From positions 1 through 64,000 of the forward strand of contig JAFRCO010000007.1 in assembly GCA_017404325.1 (NCBI GenBank): a stretch of DNA of 64,000 bases, written 5' to 3'. The DNA is from Candidatus Saccharimonadota bacterium (lineage in GTDB: Bacteria > Patescibacteriota > Saccharimonadia > Saccharimonadales > Saccharimonadaceae). The position numbers were made by a program, and so were the translations under genes. This document shows, piece after piece, positions 29,011-38,264 of this stretch; the first letter of the stretch is position 1, and every line of letters starts with the position of its first letter. Under the pieces are notes generated by a model. That model saw only the letters and a program-made list of their open reading frames with translations. It was not told the origin of the DNA and made no database searches.

Positions 29011-29078
29011 GGGGGTACGTAGCTTAACAACCTAAGGGCGCAGCTCGGAATATTTTTATGTATAGGAGGATTAAAAGA

Positions 29079-29576
29079 ATGAGCGGTAGCAAGTGGAACG
29101 CAATTAAGAAGGAAAACACGGATCCGGCTGAAGAGGCAGCAAAGAAGAAGGTTGCCGAGGAAGAGGCAGCCAAAAAGAAGGCTGCCGAGGATGCAGCCAA
29201 AAAGAAGGCTGCCGAGGAAGAGGCAGCCAAAAAGAAGGCTGCTGAAGATGCGGCAAAAAAGAAGCTGCCGACGGCGGCAGAACTTCGTGCCCAAGCGGCC
29301 AAAAAGGACGAAGAGTCCAAGAAAAAGGCCAAGGAGGCCGAAGAGTTGCGAAAGGCCGCAGTTGAGGCCGAAAGGAAGGAAGCCGAAGAAGCGGCTAAGA
29401 GAAAAGCCGCTGATGAGGCAGCCAGAAAGAAAGCTGCCGAAGAGGCAGCAAAAAAGAAGGCTGCCGAGGAAGAGGCAGCCAAGAAAAAGGCCGCCGAAGA
29501 CACTATGCCCTACACGGGCCCCGTGTACATCCCGGCTTGGAGCCAGGATGGAAAAATTTACTTCGTTAAGAAGTAA
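29079..29576 (+). CDS. Ala/Lys/Glu repeat protein (TolA-like helical low complexity)
   Basis: 165 residues. After MSGSKWNAIKKENTDPAEEA comes a run of about 120 residues of EEAAKKKAAE-type repeats, predicted as one long charged helix or coiled coil, then a conserved-looking globular end with PYTGPVYIPAW and DGKIYFVKK. No signal peptide or membrane segment. The ATG at 29079 has AGGAGGA 8 nt upstream. A perfect promoter and a terminator imply strong expression. Codons are richer in G/C-ending forms than neighbours. It could be a spacer or scaffold protein. The helix resembles TolA domain II in composition only. Confidence 0.78.
   Translation: MSGSKWNAIKKENTDPAEEAAKKKVAEEEAAKKKAAEDAAKKKAAEEEAAKKKAAEDAAKKKLPTAAELRAQAAKKDEESKKKAKEAEELRKAAVEAERKEAEEAAKRKAADEAARKKAAEEAAKKKAAEEEAAKKKAAEDTMPYTGPVYIPAWSQDGKIYFVKK
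29119..29503 (+). repeat. Degenerate tandem repeat coding EEAAKKKAAE
   Basis: Near-identical units containing GAGGCAGCCAAAAAGAAGG and GCTGCCGAGG recur, for example near 29163, 29223 and 29470. The near-identity at DNA level suggests recent expansion by slippage or recombination. Confidence 0.75.
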
Positions 29577-29652: not shown

Positions 29653-29681
29653 TTGACAAATAAGCTAAAGTGTGATACAAT
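29653..29681 (+). promoter_or_regulatory. Near-consensus promoter with long leader
   Basis: TTGACA (29653-29658), 17 bp, TACAAT (29676-29681). Transcription from about 29688 leaves a leader of about 170 nt before the ATG at 29859. Confidence 0.82.
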
Positions 29682-29733
29682 GTAATTAGTCTGAGTTTTT
29701 GGGTATTCTCTTAAACAGGAAGACCATTAACAA

Positions 29734-29782
29734 CCGAATCATCTCAGATTTCAAATTTGAAATCTGAAAGCTATCTATATAT
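29734..29782 (+). repeat. Left arm of nested inverted repeat
   Basis: Contains CCGAATCATCTCAG (29734-29747) and GCTATCTATATAT (29770-29782). Their reverse complements lie, in mirrored order, at 31860-31873 and 31764-31776. Between them is a perfect 24-bp palindrome (29744-29767). Confidence 0.8.
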
Positions 29783-29808
29783 AGTTGTCAGGCAGGCAAT
29801 ACTCCCAT

Positions 29809-29850
29809 TCGGAGGTATTGACCTCCGAAAATTATTATGATTAAAGGAGG
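29809..29850 (+). promoter_or_regulatory. Candidate translational switch in leader RNA
   Basis: TCGGAGGT, loop ATTG, ACCTCCGA forms an 8-bp hairpin (29809-29828). Its CCTCC (29822-29826) could instead pair with GGAGG of the ribosome-binding site (29846-29850). Upstream CAATAC (29798-29803) can pair with GTATTG (29815-29820), competing with the hairpin. Three mutually exclusive pairings suggest leader control of translation. No known riboswitch class is recognised. Confidence 0.5.
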
Positions 29851-29858
29851 AAAATACC

Positions 29859-31757
29859 ATGTTGGGTAGTATTATTGTGGCGATTATCGCCATCATCTTG
29901 ATGGGGGTGGCTGAGCAAACGTTCAGCGAAAAAACCCTGATCGAGACCGACAAAGAAACTGGGAAACGCAAGATCGTTTTCCAAAACCTCGAAGAAGGGG
30001 GATGGCTTCGTGCCGTCACGTTTGGTGTAATTCTTGGTATTATCCATTTCGTTACACCAAAATTGGCAGGTTTTTGGCTCTTCCTCGCGCCTGTCATGCT
30101 CGTAATCATGATTATCATGTATTGGTATCTGTGCGCGAGATGGCGTGAGAAGGGGAAGACCTTCGTAGGTCTTCTGATGTTTATTCTGTTGGCAGTACTG
30201 ATGTATTGGACTGCTATGGCAACGGCGACGATGACTGTTGCATGCTTCCACTTGAAAGCGGGTTGGGCAAATCTGTTTATGACCATCCCAATTTTGATGT
30301 TGGTGGCCGCGGCATTCTTCTTTATCATCGACCGTATTTTCTTCTACAGTTATGAGAAGAGAACTGAGGCGACCGATGAACAGGGAGAAGTCATCGACAG
30401 CGAGGCCGATGCAAGGGCGCGAATCAGTAGGATTCTTGGTCTGATTGTTTGCGTAATTGCAACGCTTGTTCTGATTGCGCTGCTTGTCGGAGGGATTAAG
30501 GGGGCAAATTTTAATTTGCCGTCTCCGTTCGATAAGCTGACGGAAAATCAGACTGAAGCAACAACGGAGGCGGCGGATAAAACAGACGACAAGTCGGAAA
30601 CTAAGAAGCAGGAAGAGGAAGATGTCAAAGAGGCACTCGATAATCTGACTGTTCAGAAGTTAACGGCTGAGGAGCTGGAGAAGCTGACTACAGAGAAATA
30701 TAAAGATATTTCTCAGGAGTTGCTGCAGTCCTCGTTATCGCCAAATGACAAAGGAAGAACAACGAAGACAGGCTTTTCGGACGCTTTGACCTTCGGGTTT
30801 GAGAGTTCGAAAGAAGAGGAAATGTTCCTCGAACTGGAAGAAGAAATTCTTCGAAATCCTGTGTACGGAGTTACAGTCGCTAACGCCATTAAGGATAAGA
30901 AACTCGGTAATAATACTATCGGGGAACTTAATCCTTGGATGGATGAGATGGTAACTTTGAACAAGGAAAACGGTGTATCTCATTGGGTTGAGTACAGAGA
31001 TAAGTCTGGAACGATTTACGTAACAGACGAATACCGCATTTATGCGGCGACTCTCTGCACTTGGCTGGAGCGCCTGGTTGATCAGGGCGTTCAGATGCGT
31101 CAAACGGCTGAAAACTGGTGTCTTAACGCAGCGGCCAAAAATAATGACCGTGCGGGAATCAAGGCCAGTTATCAGTATAAAAAGGAAGCCTTAGTGCTTT
31201 CTTACGTCGGTAAGAATGGCAACGCCATCTTTACAATTGGCTTCAATATCCACGATAAGAGACCAGAATTCTTCGACAATAATAAGCCGAAGGATGAGGA
31301 AACTAAGGAAGACAAGCCTAAAGATGACAAACCGGACAATCCGGACGATCCGCCTGATGACAAGCCAAAATACAAAAAGGATCCTAACGACGCTCCGAAG
31401 GATAATACGGAGCCGAATGACGACAAGGGTCCGGGAGAGAACACCAATTCTGGTAAAGGTTCAGACAAGTCGACAAAAGATCAGGATACGAATTCAGATC
31501 ATTATCAGTCGTACGATGAATATAAGGACGACATGGATGATATGGAGGAAACGAATGATAAACAAAAGCAGGGAGGAGACTCTAATGAGCCTTCTACACC
31601 TCCGACAAACGATACCAATGTCGATAACAACGGCGATAGTGGAACCGGTAACGGCTCTATTGATCAGCCAACCACAGATCCGGCAACTGACAACCCGGCT
31701 GATGGATCGAATATATCTGGTGAAGCTGACGGGGCTTGGGAGGGCCCCCCAGACTAA
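29859..31757 (+). CDS. Polytopic membrane protein with Asp/Lys/Pro-rich tail, unknown
   Basis: 632 residues: about six hydrophobic helices in the first 210 residues (starting MLGSIIVAIIAIILMGVAEQ, then about 50-90, 103-130, 140-160, 188-207), a helical charged linker, a domain of about 200 residues (including EYRDKSGTIYVTDEYRIYAA and ENWCLNAAAK), and a 150-residue disordered tail of Asp, Lys, Pro, Asn and Gly. No LPxTG. Many codons end in C or G (ATC, GCC, GTC), unlike surrounding genes. Full Shine-Dalgarno GGAGG. It is bounded by nested inverted repeats, and a structured RNA follows. I do not recognise the family. Envelope location is clear; function is not. Confidence 0.78.
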   Translation: MLGSIIVAIIAIILMGVAEQTFSEKTLIETDKETGKRKIVFQNLEEGGWLRAVTFGVILGIIHFVTPKLAGFWLFLAPVMLVIMIIMYWYLCARWREKGKTFVGLLMFILLAVLMYWTAMATATMTVACFHLKAGWANLFMTIPILMLVAAAFFFIIDRIFFYSYEKRTEATDEQGEVIDSEADARARISRILGLIVCVIATLVLIALLVGGIKGANFNLPSPFDKLTENQTEATTEAADKTDDKSETKKQEEEDVKEALDNLTVQKLTAEELEKLTTEKYKDISQELLQSSLSPNDKGRTTKTGFSDALTFGFESSKEEEMFLELEEEILRNPVYGVTVANAIKDKKLGNNTIGELNPWMDEMVTLNKENGVSHWVEYRDKSGTIYVTDEYRIYAATLCTWLERLVDQGVQMRQTAENWCLNAAAKNNDRAGIKASYQYKKEALVLSYVGKNGNAIFTIGFNIHDKRPEFFDNNKPKDEETKEDKPKDDKPDNPDDPPDDKPKYKKDPNDAPKDNTEPNDDKGPGENTNSGKGSDKSTKDQDTNSDHYQSYDEYKDDMDDMEETNDKQKQGGDSNEPSTPPTNDTNVDNNGDSGTGNGSIDQPTTDPATDNPADGSNISGEADGAWEGPPD

Positions 31758-31763
31758 CTAATG

Positions 31764-31873
31764 ATATATAGATAGCACGGATGAAGTCTTTAAGGACGGA
31801 TTAGTACATTACGCATTGTCCCGGCGGCTTTTCGCCGCCGGGCTTCATCCAATTTGAGACTGAGATGATTCGG
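31764..31873 (-). repeat. Right arm of nested inverted repeat
   Basis: Contains ATATATAGATAGC (31764-31776) and CTGAGATGATTCGG (31860-31873), the reverse complements of the left-arm blocks. The outer block similarity extends imperfectly (CAAATT). The two blocks are separated by a GC-rich hairpin instead of the left-side palindrome. Confidence 0.8.
31779..31850 (+). terminator. Nested 3' hairpin, possible terminator or RNA end structure
   Basis: Outer stem GGATGAAG/CTTCATCC (31779-31786 / 31843-31850) encloses CCCGGCGGC, TTTTC, GCCGCCGGG. The inner stem is very strong, but no T-run follows, so it may protect the mRNA end or belong to the repeat unit rather than terminate. Confidence 0.6.
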
Positions 31874-31955
31874 CTGTCAAGGACGAAAATTAACAAATCG
31901 GCTAGCAACAAAAACTCTATATTTTAATAAATCATTATATTAAGAAAGGAATATT

Positions 31956-33290
31956 ATGAATAAATTATTAAAAGCGGCGCTTAGTGTGACTGCTGCGGTC
32001 GTGATCGCGACAGCTTCACTCACGCCTGTAATAGTGAGTGCTTGGGGTGACTCAGATGGTGGTCGTCCTAGCTACACGTTAGACCAAATCAACAATGGTG
32101 ATTTGGGCGACACGATTACGTTTAACTCGATTTCTAACGGTAAAATCGGGGATGAAAAGAACTTCGTTGGTGCTAAGGTTGCCGGTGCTACGGTTGAAAC
32201 TTGGAATGCTAACGAAATTAACGTGAAAGATGGCGAAACTTATACGATTCGTCTTTTCGTTCACAACAACAGTCCTAAAGGGATGGATGCCATCGCTAAG
32301 GACGTAAAAGCTACTTTTTCGGTTCCGACAACGGTTTCTAACTCGCAAACGATTATCGGTTATATCGATTCTTCGAATGCTAAACCAGTTCGTTACTGGG
32401 ATGAAGTAACGCTTAAATCAAACGATAACTTTTATCTTGAATACGTCGAAGGTTCGGCGAAATATAACAACAATAAAGGTGTTTTCAACCTTTCTAATGA
32501 TGTAATCATTTCTGGCGTTAAGCTTGGTTATGATTCTATGAATGGTCAAATTCCTGGTTGTTATGAATATTCTGGTGTAGTTACGATTGATGTTAAAGTT
32601 CATAGCTCTGTTGCAGCTAAAGTATCAAAAACTGTGCGTATTAAGGGCGATGCTGATAAAACTTGGAAAGAATCAGTAAATGCTAAGGTTGGAGATGAGG
32701 TTGAGTTCCAAATTGAGTACGTTAACCTCTTATCTGAAACTGTTAATAACGTAGCAGTTAGAGACGTATTGCCGACCAATATCGAATACGTTAAAGGTTC
32801 TACCTATCTTTATAATGCAAGTCACCAAAGTGGCGTGCTCTTAGAGGGTGATCATTTAACTACAACTGGTATTGTAATTGGTAATTACGGTCCTAAAGGT
32901 AATGCGTATGTTCGTTTCACTGGTAAAGTTATCGATAAAACGATGGCTTGTGGTTCTAACCAATTAGTGAACTGGGCAAGCGCTACGGTTTCAAGTTCTA
33001 CTGTTAAAGATGCTGTCTATAAAGACGATGCTTCTGTAATGGTCACTAAGGATGATGAAACCTGTAAAGACAAACCAGATGACCCAGATGACCCGAAAGA
33101 AGATTGTACTACAAATCCGGAATTACCTGAATGTAAGACTCCGGATGAACCGGAAACTCCGGATGAACCGGAAACCCCGGAAGATCTTCCTTCTACTGGT
33201 CCAACAACTATTGTAACTGGTGCTATTGGCGCGGGTTCAGTAGTTACGACTCTCGGTTATTATATTGCTAGCCGCAAAAAGTTAATGTAG
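31956..33290 (+). CDS. LPSTG-anchored surface protein with DUF11-like domain
   Basis: 444 residues: signal peptide (about 1-29, ending VIVSAWG), an N-terminal beta domain (DTITFNSISNGKIGDEKNFVGA), a DUF11-like isopeptide-type repeat (AKVGDEVEFQIEYVN, NNVAVRDVLPTNIEYVKGST), a Pro/Glu/Asp-rich spacer (DEPETPDEPETPEDL), then LPSTG, a hydrophobic helix and a basic RKK tail. A sortase should attach it to peptidoglycan. Cys pairs may add disulfides. Ribosome-binding site AAAGG. Just downstream of the inverted-repeat unit and upstream of the TrbL-like pair. A surface adhesin or stalk role is inferred. Confidence 0.9.
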   Translation: MNKLLKAALSVTAAVVIATASLTPVIVSAWGDSDGGRPSYTLDQINNGDLGDTITFNSISNGKIGDEKNFVGAKVAGATVETWNANEINVKDGETYTIRLFVHNNSPKGMDAIAKDVKATFSVPTTVSNSQTIIGYIDSSNAKPVRYWDEVTLKSNDNFYLEYVEGSAKYNNNKGVFNLSNDVIISGVKLGYDSMNGQIPGCYEYSGVVTIDVKVHSSVAAKVSKTVRIKGDADKTWKESVNAKVGDEVEFQIEYVNLLSETVNNVAVRDVLPTNIEYVKGSTYLYNASHQSGVLLEGDHLTTTGIVIGNYGPKGNAYVRFTGKVIDKTMACGSNQLVNWASATVSSSTVKDAVYKDDASVMVTKDDETCKDKPDDPDDPKEDCTTNPELPECKTPDEPETPDEPETPEDLPSTGPTTIVTGAIGAGSVVTTLGYYIASRKKLM

Positions 33291-33420: not shown

Positions 33421-34281
33421 ATGAATCCGTCATACGATAATTCTTTTGGCAGTTTCAGCTCGGGTGGAACATCTGGGGGAGCTATTCAGCAGCAACAGCC
33501 GATAGTAATAAATAATGGTAAGGCAAAAAAGCCGGTTAAAAAAATATTAATAACGATTTTGTTGATTGTTTTGGTGGTGGGGGGAGTGGCGCTAGCAGTG
33601 CTACTGTTTTTGAATGGGAGACAGAGTGCAAAGGATGAGGCTGAAGAACTTTATTATACTTTAGCGTCAACCTATAATGATTCTTATGGTCAGTGTCAGT
33701 TGGTTACACAAGATGTTGATAATATAAATAGGACGAAAGACGGATATAAAGAAACCCTAGATGAGTGCCAAACCAAATCGGACAGAATTGAAGTATTGAT
33801 GAAAAAATTTGAGAATAAAGTTAATTCTGAGGAGTATAGACAATTATATTCTAACTTAAAATCCGTGGTTTCTGAAAGGATATTGACTGGTGAAACGTTA
33901 AAAAATAGATTAATGGCATATGAAGTGTGGCATAATTTTAGGTTAGAATTAAGTAAGGCTGATCTTTATCAATTACCTGAGGATATGGAAGAGATGATAA
34001 AGCCGTTACGCGAGATTGAAGTAAAAGAATTGAATCAATATGCTGAGCAATGGCTTGAAAAACGAGAAGCTTTGTCTGATGCATTCATTTTTGTGACTGC
34101 CTTTAGTGATAACGAGAAGTACGTTAGTGATTACGAGATAAAATTAGAAAATTATGAATCATTAGCTAATAAAACCTTTTCTGAAGTCGTTGAGAGTATG
34201 AGATTAGATCGTGAAAGTAGCAATAGCAATATTGATGAAGCTTCGTATTTATTTAATATTTATGTTGAGGGAGCATTATGA
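33421..34281 (+). CDS. Bitopic membrane protein upstream of TrbL-like protein
   Basis: 286 residues: a Gly/Ser/Gln-rich cytoplasmic start, a KKPVKK patch, a transmembrane helix (about 43-64), and a helical extracytoplasmic domain with two Cys (YGQCQLV, LDECQTK). The domain is largely coiled-coil-like. Stop and next start overlap (ATGA), so it is coupled to the TrbL-like gene. The topology fits a bitopic accessory subunit of an envelope machine, but I cannot name the family. Confidence 0.72.
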   Translation: MNPSYDNSFGSFSSGGTSGGAIQQQQPIVINNGKAKKPVKKILITILLIVLVVGGVALAVLLFLNGRQSAKDEAEELYYTLASTYNDSYGQCQLVTQDVDNINRTKDGYKETLDECQTKSDRIEVLMKKFENKVNSEEYRQLYSNLKSVVSERILTGETLKNRLMAYEVWHNFRLELSKADLYQLPEDMEEMIKPLREIEVKELNQYAEQWLEKREALSDAFIFVTAFSDNEKYVSDYEIKLENYESLANKTFSEVVESMRLDRESSNSNIDEASYLFNIYVEGAL

Positions 34282-37200
34282 AAATAAAAAAGTTTTTTGC
34301 TTGGGTTTTATGTATCTTAGCGTTAGTCTTATCAGTTTTTTTGCCATATACTAACGTTTTTGCGAAAACTTCGCTTCAAGAAGCACAAGAAAGTGGTAAT
34401 TATGATAACCTAGTCGGAATTCGGTATTTAATCCAAGAAGCGGACGGGTGTATAATAGATGCTCTTCCTAATAGTGTAACTATGCCCATTACTGCTATTG
34501 ATCAAGTCAAGACTGACATGCGGAATATATATGAATTAAAATTCTTACAATTAGAAAATGCATCCACTGACTATCCTACAATTGCTTATAATCACAATTT
34601 ATTGTATAACGGATACCTTGAGGTAAATGAGACTGGGAAATATCAGGATGGTAGAATTTGGTGTAGCCAATTAAAAGCTGATCCTGGTGCACAATTGATG
34701 GAATTATATGGTTTAACCAATGATGAGGATTATACTGATTTAATTTGTGGTAAGAATGGGAAGGAAGGCTTATTTAATATTAAGATGGGGTTTTCTAAAG
34801 GACCTGGGTGGGGATACGCCTATAATGAAGAAAACTGGCCGGACGGTTGGCCGAAGGTTGGAAATGGGGGTGCGGTTGCCGCTAGTGATTGTAGGGCGGC
34901 CGCAAAGCATTTGATGTATTATGCAAAACATCCTGCTTCTCGGCCAGATTGGGCTAATCGGGCAGCTTATGATGAGGGAACGTTTACTTTTGAGCTTGAA
35001 ATAAATAAGGGTTTTAAATTTTCTACCTTTTTCATGGATTATGCGGGTAATATCAGTCAGCACGCCTTGACGGACGATGCATTATTGAATGCAGAAAAGT
35101 ATCAAGTCTTTGATAGTGTTTGTGCTCCTATAGACGTGAGCGAAGCGGATTACAAAGAAAGTCTTGTTGAGAACGACAATATTTACAAGATATACTACAA
35201 AGGGATGATGCGATATGTACAGTTGGATGGTACTTATAAAACTAGAAAAACTTACGCAAACGGTGCTTTAACAGAATCAGATGGCGGAAATGGGACTGCT
35301 GAAACGTGTCCGGAACTAGCAGAGGCTTTGTCGGAGAAGGCTGATGCGCAGTATGCTAAGGATGATGCATCTAGGAAAGCTACTGACATAGTTAATTGTT
35401 ATAATACAGCTGTTGAGAATAAAGAGTTACTTACGAAAGTGAACGGGTATCTGTCTTCTGTGTATAATGCGGGACATCTTTTAGTTAAGAATGCCGAAGC
35501 TTTTAAAAATCATGATTACAAACCGGTATATGAAACAAATCCTGCTGGAGGGACGTCGGATGTCCCGGTTGAAGTGTTAACGTCATTTACTAATGATTAT
35601 GATGTTTTGGCTTTGGAATATATCAATGGAAATGGGAAAAATGTTGAAAAAGGTATTAAAGAGTTAATTGGGCAAAAAGGGAAAGAAGTGCCAGCCCTAG
35701 ATAATTATGTAGATTTAATAACGGATTTTTTGACTTATGCTAGAGGAATGCGTGATAAGGTTATTAATGGGACGTCTCTAACGAATGAAGAAAAAGCAGA
35801 GTTCGATCAGGCGCTAGATACTTTTAAGGAAGATGTGGCGAAATTTAACTCTGATGTTTCCAAGCCGGCATTAAGGTTGCCAATAAAACATACATTCCCT
35901 GACTTTTCGAAATTTGAGACTACTGTCTCGAAGTTAAATACCTGCTTGTCGAAAAACAATTGTGACACCATTACTATCAATAATATGGAGGCTGGTTTTT
36001 ATAGCTTTTCTGGGGAGGAAGGTTCTCAGGTTCTCACTTGTACTGTAGGAAATACTGTTCAGTCTGCACTGGATGAGCTTGGAGAATTGTTAGGAACTAC
36101 AGTAGAGTATTCTGGTTTTACGCCTTCTGAAGGAGTGGACTATGATGATTATAATGAGACAAATGGCGATGGGGATCCATGTTATAACGCTGGGATTGAG
36201 GGGATGTCGTGGATACTTTGTCCGGCGCTTAACAATATGGTAGTTGCTTCGGATGGAATTAGTAAGGCTCTTGATTGGCTTTTAGAAATGAAGTCTGAAC
36301 TATATGGTAGTGATAGTGCAACGCATAAAGCTTGGAGTTATTTCCGTGACATAGCAAATATTATAGTAATTATACTTTTACTTGTAGTGATAGTTTCTCA
36401 GTTGACAGGTTATGGTATCGATAATTATGGTATAAAGAAAGCATTACCGAGATTAATATCGATGGCAGTGTTGATTAATCTTAGCTTCATTATTTGTCAG
36501 ATAGCCATTGATCTTTCTAATATTCTAGGAAGCGGATTGAATGATTTGTTTAAGAGTATAGGGCTGAATATTAATAGTTCAATAGGCGCGGAAGGAGTTA
36601 TGGGAGGAATTGTTTCTGCATTATTCGTGTCGGCTGGTGTGGCTGGAGCTTTAGGAGGGACGGCTATAACTGTTGCCTCTATGTCTGGTGCTGGTATGTC
36701 TACTATGCTCGTTGTTATGCTTGTCTTAATATTTGCAGTGGTGCTTGTGGCGGTTATAGCTTTTTTCTTGTTACTTGCTGGAAGGTTCGTAGTTTTACTT
36801 GTCTTTACCGCAGTTGCGCCGGTGGCGTTTGCATGTTATATTTTGCCGAATACTCAGGAAATCTTTAAAAAATGGTGGAAGATTTTTGAAGCTGCTCTTG
36901 TTATTTATCCAATTTGTGGCGGGTTATATGGGGCTAGCTTCATCATTCGTGCTATAGTTTTCGAAAAGGGCAATGGATATCATCCTATGATGGCAATGGC
37001 TGGCATCATTGTGCCATATTTGCCTTTCTTATTGATACCAACTTTGGCTAAGGGAGTGTTGGCTGGATTTGGTGCGTTGGGCGGAGCGTTGTCTGGAATT
37101 AAGAATGGGATTAAAGGTGGGCTTTCTAAGAGTCAGGATGTATTAAGACAAACAGAAGCATATAAAAATGATCAAATTAGAGCTCAAAGAGGAAGAAATG

Positions 37201-38264
37201 CTAAAGCCGCTGGACTTAAATTAGATCAAAGCACTGGTAATTATACAAAGCGTGATGATCCTAAAACTAGGGTTGGAAAATGGTGGCAAAATAGAAGAGT
37301 CGCTTCAGGCGCAGTAGCTCGGGCTCAGGCAAGAGTTTTGGCTGATCAAGAAGCTATGGCGAATGAAGCTAATATGGGAAAGGGAGATTTTGCTTCCAAA
37401 TTGGAAGCTAGACAAGCAACTCAAGAGAAGGCAGCTGAGAATGCCGCAATCGTAGATCAGATGAAATTGATAGAAAAAGAAACAAACAATGGTGCTAATG
37501 AAGCTAGAGTAAGAGATATCTTCAATGAAGCGATGAGCAGTGGAAATATATCGAGAGCAAGGGCTGCAGTACGTATTGCTGGTAGACGGGCAGATACGGC
37601 AGCATCTTTTATGAAGGGTACATTAATGTCTAATAATTATAGTGAAGATGCTATGAAGGGGGTTGCAAAAGAGTTTTCGGAGGGAGAAACTTCTAAAGTG
37701 TATCGTGGAGCTTCTCCGGTTGCGTTTGAATATGCTGCAGAGGTAAATAAAGGAGGATTCAGTGGGGGCTTTAGCGACTTTGCAACGAATAAAGATAATC
37801 TTCATAAGGCTATTGATAGACACGTGACTACTGTTGATGAATTTTCGAGTGTTAAAAATAGCGGTCTTGAGGAGTTTGCTAATATGGTTAGTGCGCATGA
37901 ATTAGAAGATTATGACGCACAAGGTTTACAAAAGTTGGCGAGAGATACAATTAAATTTAATAATGAAAATGGTCAAGGGCTTGATAGAACCAAAGCTTTC
38001 AGTACTTATAGATTGGCTTATGGTGATTCAGAATTTATGAGTAAAATGCAGGAAGATGGGGTTCCTATTGATCCAGAAGCATTGAAAAAGTTCGAACAGT
38101 TTAAGAATAATAATACATTTACAGCTCGAGGTGCAGGAGGTGAAGTGACTTTTGGTAGGGGAAGAGATGGCGAATGGCGTGATAGTGGGGGAAATGTTAT
38201 GGAAGGTGATTTTGGTCAAGTGAGACAAAGTATTATAGATCAACGACAACAACCAAAGAGATAG
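34278..38264 (+). CDS. TrbL/VirB6-like giant membrane protein
   Basis: 1328 residues. Signal segment (about 5-27), a 650-residue extracytoplasmic domain with many Cys (DGCIIDA, RIWCSQL, LICGKNG, SDCRAA, VCAPID, CLSKNNCDT), then six to eight hydrophobic helices between about 690 and 940 (IIVIILLLVVIVSQLTGYG; FAVVLVAVIAFFLLLAGRF; FTAVAPVAFACYILP). A Gly/Ala-rich stretch follows, then a 390-residue hydrophilic cytoplasmic tail with Ala/Arg helices. The central helices resemble TrbL/VirB6 channel proteins of type IV secretion-like machines. VirB4, PrgI and other partners are not in the window. It ends 7 bp from convergent folD, with no visible terminator. Confidence 0.72.
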   Translation: MKIKKFFAWVLCILALVLSVFLPYTNVFAKTSLQEAQESGNYDNLVGIRYLIQEADGCIIDALPNSVTMPITAIDQVKTDMRNIYELKFLQLENASTDYPTIAYNHNLLYNGYLEVNETGKYQDGRIWCSQLKADPGAQLMELYGLTNDEDYTDLICGKNGKEGLFNIKMGFSKGPGWGYAYNEENWPDGWPKVGNGGAVAASDCRAAAKHLMYYAKHPASRPDWANRAAYDEGTFTFELEINKGFKFSTFFMDYAGNISQHALTDDALLNAEKYQVFDSVCAPIDVSEADYKESLVENDNIYKIYYKGMMRYVQLDGTYKTRKTYANGALTESDGGNGTAETCPELAEALSEKADAQYAKDDASRKATDIVNCYNTAVENKELLTKVNGYLSSVYNAGHLLVKNAEAFKNHDYKPVYETNPAGGTSDVPVEVLTSFTNDYDVLALEYINGNGKNVEKGIKELIGQKGKEVPALDNYVDLITDFLTYARGMRDKVINGTSLTNEEKAEFDQALDTFKEDVAKFNSDVSKPALRLPIKHTFPDFSKFETTVSKLNTCLSKNNCDTITINNMEAGFYSFSGEEGSQVLTCTVGNTVQSALDELGELLGTTVEYSGFTPSEGVDYDDYNETNGDGDPCYNAGIEGMSWILCPALNNMVVASDGISKALDWLLEMKSELYGSDSATHKAWSYFRDIANIIVIILLLVVIVSQLTGYGIDNYGIKKALPRLISMAVLINLSFIICQIAIDLSNILGSGLNDLFKSIGLNINSSIGAEGVMGGIVSALFVSAGVAGALGGTAITVASMSGAGMSTMLVVMLVLIFAVVLVAVIAFFLLLAGRFVVLLVFTAVAPVAFACYILPNTQEIFKKWWKIFEAALVIYPICGGLYGASFIIRAIVFEKGNGYHPMMAMAGIIVPYLPFLLIPTLAKGVLAGFGALGGALSGIKNGIKGGLSKSQDVLRQTEAYKNDQIRAQRGRNAKAAGLKLDQSTGNYTKRDDPKTRVGKWWQNRRVASGAVARAQARVLADQEAMANEANMGKGDFASKLEARQATQEKAAENAAIVDQMKLIEKETNNGANEARVRDIFNEAMSSGNISRARAAVRIAGRRADTAASFMKGTLMSNNYSEDAMKGVAKEFSEGETSKVYRGASPVAFEYAAEVNKGGFSGGFSDFATNKDNLHKAIDRHVTTVDEFSSVKNSGLEEFANMVSAHELEDYDAQGLQKLARDTIKFNNENGQGLDRTKAFSTYRLAYGDSEFMSKMQEDGVPIDPEALKKFEQFKNNNTFTARGAGGEVTFGRGRDGEWRDSGGNVMEGDFGQVRQSIIDQRQQPKR

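Follow-up and report, generated by a model that had tools for sequence, protein, structure and literature searches.

The window, the entire 64,000-nucleotide stretch of DNA analyzed here, comes from a 766-kb genome of the genus Candidatus Nanosyncoccus (Saccharibacteria), and all features described below lie on its forward strand. ORF-A (29859–31757) encodes a 632-residue protein with predicted transmembrane (TM) helices, which agrees with the membrane protein named in the original prediction. Upstream is a promoter-like site (TTGACA, 17 nt, TACAAT; 29653–29681) that is conserved in a 113-locus alignment and from which transcription would start approximately 6–7 nt downstream. Downstream is a DUF11 surface-protein gene (31956–33290) with a signal-peptide-like N-terminus, a DUF11 repeat, and a C-terminal LPSTG-type anchor. 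The position of ORF-A is constant across the genus genomes examined, with tpiA-side genes upstream and the surface gene downstream; the latter was found in 165/174 same-genus genomes and in 110/110 of the same-genus genomes with ≥90% completeness and ≤5% contamination. Two other genes of this neighborhood were observed: an ORF just upstream of the promoter (29058–29576), rich in Lys, Ala, and Glu with KKKAAEEAA repeats, and, downstream of the surface gene, a gene for a 1328-residue protein with a multi-TM segment (34278–38264), which is conserved nearby in many relatives and has no Pfam or NCBIfam match.

ORF-A is enclosed by nested inverted repeats, as originally described. The outer arms (29727–29747 and 31860–31880; 21 nt, 90% match) include an exact 14-mer, CCGAATCATCTCAG/CTGAGATGATTCGG, and the inner arms (29770–29782 and 31764–31776; 13 nt, 100% match), of which the 3′ strand begins just past the ORF-A stop codon, are nested in mirrored order. 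The palindrome reported between the left blocks was recovered as a perfect 24-bp palindrome at 29744–29767, where it would form a local 5′ hairpin, and the GC-rich hairpin reported on the right lies at 31820–31842; it has no U-run and is not a typical terminator. Two features extend the earlier description. The outer helix is longer than reported, joining 29730–29754 to 31853–31877 and so reaching into the palindrome, and a stem, GGATGAAG/CTTCATCC (31779–31850), which had been overlooked, encloses both the GC-rich hairpin and a conserved AGYACWTTA motif. The complementarity of the arms in the species itself (ungapped score of 15) exceeds the null maximum of 11 and beats all 100 shuffles.

Further conserved motifs accompany the arms. 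The 5′ leader (29688–29723) carries UAGUCUGAG followed by GAAGAC, both motifs being present in 88/115 loci. Its UAGUC has two possible partners, the nearby AGAC and GRCUA in the 3′ block, on weaker evidence than that for the main helix. The 3′ block, GACGAAAATTAACAAWTCGGCTAGC (31882–31906), lies between the 3′ arm and the surface gene, within the leader of the latter. It is strongly conserved, is a partial repeat of the 5′ motif ATTAACAA, might form pairs with the 5′ UAGUC and with GGUUG of the 3′ arm, and is missing from the stand-alone ORF-A copies described below. Between the 5′ arms and the start codon, four complementary segments (CUCC, GGAGG, CCUCC, and the Shine-Dalgarno (SD) AGGAGG; 29798–29850) can form alternative hairpins that would hide or free the SD. 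Many relatives share a similar arrangement, so there may be a separate switch for translation of ORF-A.

To examine the arms across the genus we fetched 100 further same-genus loci, giving a total of 123. Both arms were detected automatically in 113/123 loci, and a closer search added three (L125, L135, and L088). Five loci cut at a contig end were left out as nonassessable, as was L079, with an assembly gap of Ns at the expected 3′ arm. The arms are thus present in 116 of the 117 assessable loci; in the one assessable locus without them (L137), the surface gene has a promoter-like site directly upstream. In two of the added loci the core is rewritten in both arms with complementarity kept (AGCTAAATACATCTCA/TGAGATGTATTTAGCT in L135 and AATCGAATTATTTC/GAAATAATTCGATT in L088). 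In the 113 loci, the outer helix spans approximately 24–25 bp of near-complete Watson-Crick or G-U pairing, from 5′-strand offset 30 to offset 7. G-U wobbles are tolerated and interruptions are common (A-C mismatch at k = 6 in 36/113 loci, C-A at k = 3 in 23/113). The 2.2-kb element occurs only once in the DNA of its own genome, apart from its palindrome.

Compensatory change gives strong support to the alternative raised originally, a panhandle formed by pairing of the arms in the mRNA. Among 42 distinct arm pairs, other genera included, 20 of the 25 outer pairs have changed on both sides, and 92.9% of pairs are standard. Covariation over these 42 distinct rows is 0.530 vs. 0.204 for shuffled rows (reached by 0/500 shuffles), although the pairing register was picked from the same sequences, which favors the observed set for paired cells. 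When the partner was slid by 1–3 columns, a control that preserves the relatedness of the rows, covariation fell to 0.024–0.130. When every pair of columns in the joined flanks was scanned for covariation (Neff = 96), the top scores included 29736–31871, 29750–31857, 29731–31876, and 29734–31873, and the top of the scan is made up of panhandle pairs, the local 5′ hairpin (29748–29763 and 29750–29761), and the GC hairpin (31825–31837 and 31822–31840). Position 29750 covaries with two partners, 29761 in the hairpin and 31857 in the panhandle, and therefore two mutually exclusive structures are both maintained, the local hairpin excluding the inner-side half of the outer helix. The inner helix differs in sequence in nearly every species and tends to be self-complementary within species only (median complementarity: own pairs 24.5, other-species pairs 18, shuffled 17.5). 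From these comparisons, the inverted repeats are almost certainly RNA pairing arms that form a panhandle in the ORF-A mRNA.

The coding sequence itself is unusual at the RNA level. Relative to synonymous-codon shuffles, in which protein and codon usage are preserved and codon-pair content is not, the folding energy of ORF-A in the window has z = −9.9, against −3.4 to +1.5 in 28 other window genes. The signal was found in every species tested (z approximately −4 to −15; −4 to −14.5 in relatives), in other genera (approximately −4 to −8), and in the stand-alone copies (approximately −3 to −5; −3.2 to −7.6 over these last two sets), and the excess structure is spread over most of the length of the gene. 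Control genes, one of them with a GC3 of 0.63, gave z near 0, so codon-pair content is an unlikely cause. Excess structure over shuffles is seen on the antisense strand too, usually less of it than on the sense strand: z was lower for sense in 10/11 ORF-A genes, the exception being L034. This contrast fits selection at the RNA level and is not decisive. Overall, the comparison with shuffles indicates selection for high structure in the coding RNA that the arms enclose. For the DUF11 surface gene, the genus species tested show a moderate excess of structure over its own shuffles (z approximately −3 to −6).

No Pfam or NCBIfam family scored above its cut-off with ORF-A, in line with its description as unrecognized. 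The AlphaFold model has TM helices in residues 1–214, a confident soluble domain at approximately 245–475, and a disordered tail. Foldseek returned no PDB match at E ≤ 0.001 for either the full protein or the soluble domain, and a second look with VIA-align gave no convincing match; this lack of matches is no proof of a new fold. Across the genus (L023–L138), the soluble domain comes in two highly divergent forms in one slot (residues ~245–477), with 48–71% and 11–22% identity to the form in the window, a pattern that suggests diversifying selection or exchange of the domain. Some members of the genus, and other genera, have two ORFs in place of ORF-A, one of them a membrane ORF. The claim of G/C-ending codons unlike those of the neighbors holds against most of them: GC3 is 0.51 in ORF-A vs. 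0.30–0.47 in the other measured genes, except for the ORF at 29058, where it reaches 0.58. GC3 is higher in ORF-A than in the DUF11 gene in 22/22 species, and the codon signature is therefore an old property of ORF-A. With this and its synteny across the genus, the foreign origin first proposed for the gene was not borne out.

A search with a model of the 3′ element found second units elsewhere in five same-genus genomes (G118, G116, G002, G193, and G067), the arm sequences differing between copies. Two ORF-A-like genes, L180 and L181, have both arms but no surface gene, and a terminator-like hairpin with a T-run stands immediately past the 3′ arm; the panhandle therefore belongs to the ORF-A message, and the idea that it serves only to link ORF-A to the surface gene was rejected. 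In G067, the unit beside the surface gene (L184, G067:C5) has shrunk to 547 nt with a 143-aa ORF and arms that are still complementary, and a different contig holds a full-length ORF-A unit, also with arms (L182, G067:C2), an arrangement that points to relocation or to duplication with loss. Given the paralogous units in a few genomes, occasional duplication or relocation of ORF-A units is real. Outside the genus, differently sequenced arms surround a similar one- or two-gene unit in g32 (same family), g26, g144, g145, and g155, and a weak match in another family (L183, E = 0.0099) is backed by its own 14-bp perfect arms; a surface-type gene comes next in most of these units.

We folded the full mRNA of 40 species, and the minimum free energy (MFE) structure includes the panhandle in all of them. 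About half of the 40 MFE folds have at least 20 of 23 outer pairs, and the rest have 12–17 with the local hairpin retained. The hairpin and panhandle states therefore look close in predicted energy, as expected of a strand-exchange design, and full displacement of the hairpin by the panhandle is not certain in these models. Removing the 3′ arm in 114 minigene foldings left the predicted accessibility of the SD unchanged (median change 0.000), which speaks against a simple mode of the hok or icaR type and therefore favors control of mRNA life. The foldings predicted no direct occlusion of the ribosome-binding site by the panhandle, and this idea was rejected.

We propose the following mechanism. 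As the comparisons show, the 25-bp outer helix and the separate inner helix link the 5′ leader to sequence past the stop codon, in competition with the conserved local 5′ hairpin, which shares part of the 5′ strand. During transcription the local hairpin would form first, leaving approximately 14 nt of the 5′ strand as a free toehold; the 3′ arm, made ~2 kb later, would nucleate at the toehold, displace the hairpin, and zip the ends together. The closed, compact mRNA would then be shielded from exonucleases at both ends and be long-lived. Alternatively, mRNA life could be set by cleavage of the end helix, with RNase III as a possible control point, and a long end duplex could equally shorten the life of the message through this enzyme; we infer both the direction of the effect and the timing of panhandle closure. 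We give even chances to control of mRNA life as the purpose of the panhandle, and hold with somewhat greater confidence that an end-locked, compacted ORF-A mRNA, with a lifetime that depends on its shape, best explains the whole. More speculatively, the transcript may be dual-purpose, both a protein-coding message and, through selection over its whole length, a compact closed RNA particle that, besides being translated, is stored, localized to the membrane, or handed on as a structured object; we regard this as doubtful.

Several other explanations have to be weighed against an end-locked mRNA. A translational fold-back like that of hok, in which the full-length mRNA is silent until 3′ trimming refolds the 5′ end and turns translation on, would account for the coupled covariation of a competing 5′ hairpin and 5′–3′ pairing, with parallels in hok and aapA3 (PMC6733600), and the ribosome-binding-site region does have alternative pairings of its own. 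Yet ORF-A is a core gene and not a small toxin, and the indifference of SD accessibility to the 3′ arm also makes this explanation unlikely. The helix might instead be a processing stalk like those of rRNA operons, at which RNase III would cut to release the ORF-A and surface-gene messages from each other. Its 24–25 bp are enough for RNase III, the gene for this enzyme is present, and the surface gene starts no more than ~100 nt past the 3′ arm in most loci; however, stand-alone copies retain the helix, with a terminator and without a downstream partner gene, and mismatches recur in mid-helix, and we judge the proposal improbable.

Another possibility is that the 5′ and 3′ elements are halves of one larger structured RNA, a riboswitch or ribozyme that regulates the surface gene and has ORF-A placed within a loop. 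Such a structure would suit the motifs that are conserved but unpaired (AGYACWTTA and GACGAAAATTAACAATTCGGCTAG) and the possible extra UAGUC/GRCUA pairing, but stand-alone ORF-A copies hold the panhandle without the 3′ block, and a search of Rfam at E up to 1 gave only four weak matches below the gathering score, none of note, although a structure split by a 2-kb insert could escape such a search. We think a split structured RNA quite improbable, and a self-splicing intron or other known RNA found no support in Rfam. The cassette mobilized in trans that was originally suggested has in its favor the mirror-image arms as inverted-repeat ends and the second units in five genomes (in G067 the original copy is the 547-nt remnant), but synteny is fixed, the element is single-copy at home, the arms differ between copies, GC3 is conserved, G-U wobbles are tolerated, the covariation is of RNA type, and the promoter and leader are conserved. 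A foreign or mobile cassette is thus rejected as very improbable.

Few bacterial mRNAs are known with paired ends. In the type I toxin mRNAs hok (plasmid R1) and aapA, the 5′ and 3′ ends pair, a conserved metastable 5′ hairpin competes, and covariation is coupled (PMC6733600). The ORF-A mRNA likewise has covariation-backed end pairing and a mutually exclusive 5′ hairpin, a likeness at the level of covariation. It differs in being a long core-gene mRNA (632 aa, or two ORFs), whereas theirs encode a small toxic membrane peptide with an antisense RNA antitoxin, and, unlike in hok, the predictions leave the ribosome-binding site unmasked and the whole coding sequence is structured. The icaR mRNA of Staphylococcus aureus shows direct pairing of the 5′-UTR and 3′-UTR through a short UCCCCUG/Shine-Dalgarno contact (PMC3868564). 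The ORF-A mRNA shares 5′–3′ UTR pairing and a duplex that is a potential RNase III substrate, but its pairing comprises 25 bp plus an inner helix, is conserved across several genera, and involves a 5′ strand (29730–29754) that sits ~90 nt upstream of the SD at 29845 and is not paired with it. Like the repeats of rRNA operons, inverted repeats around a long RNA would give an RNase III-type stalk, but those of ORF-A enclose a protein-coding message and occur also without a neighboring gene. Global ordered RNA structure has been described for RNA viruses (PMC3765861); ORF-A coding RNA similarly lies below the folding energy of synonymous shuffles along its length, but it is a chromosomal bacterial gene, one transcript among neighbors without the signal. 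Unlike an insertion sequence or nonautonomous cassette, for which multiple near-identical copies at variable sites would be expected, the element is single-copy in its own genome with fixed synteny. No report of long-range pairing or noncoding RNA in Saccharibacteria turned up in the literature searched, and no mRNA found there combined a cross-genus end clamp, a competing same-strand hairpin, and structured coding RNA throughout.

ORF-A is a core surface-associated gene of episymbiotic Saccharibacteria, very small parasitic bacteria whose gene regulation is hardly known, and the panhandle supplies exact base pairs to break and restore. Pairing has been kept where the letters changed and the RNA in between seems to be under selection for tight folding; therefore the shape of the RNA itself probably controls how long, or when, the ORF-A message works.
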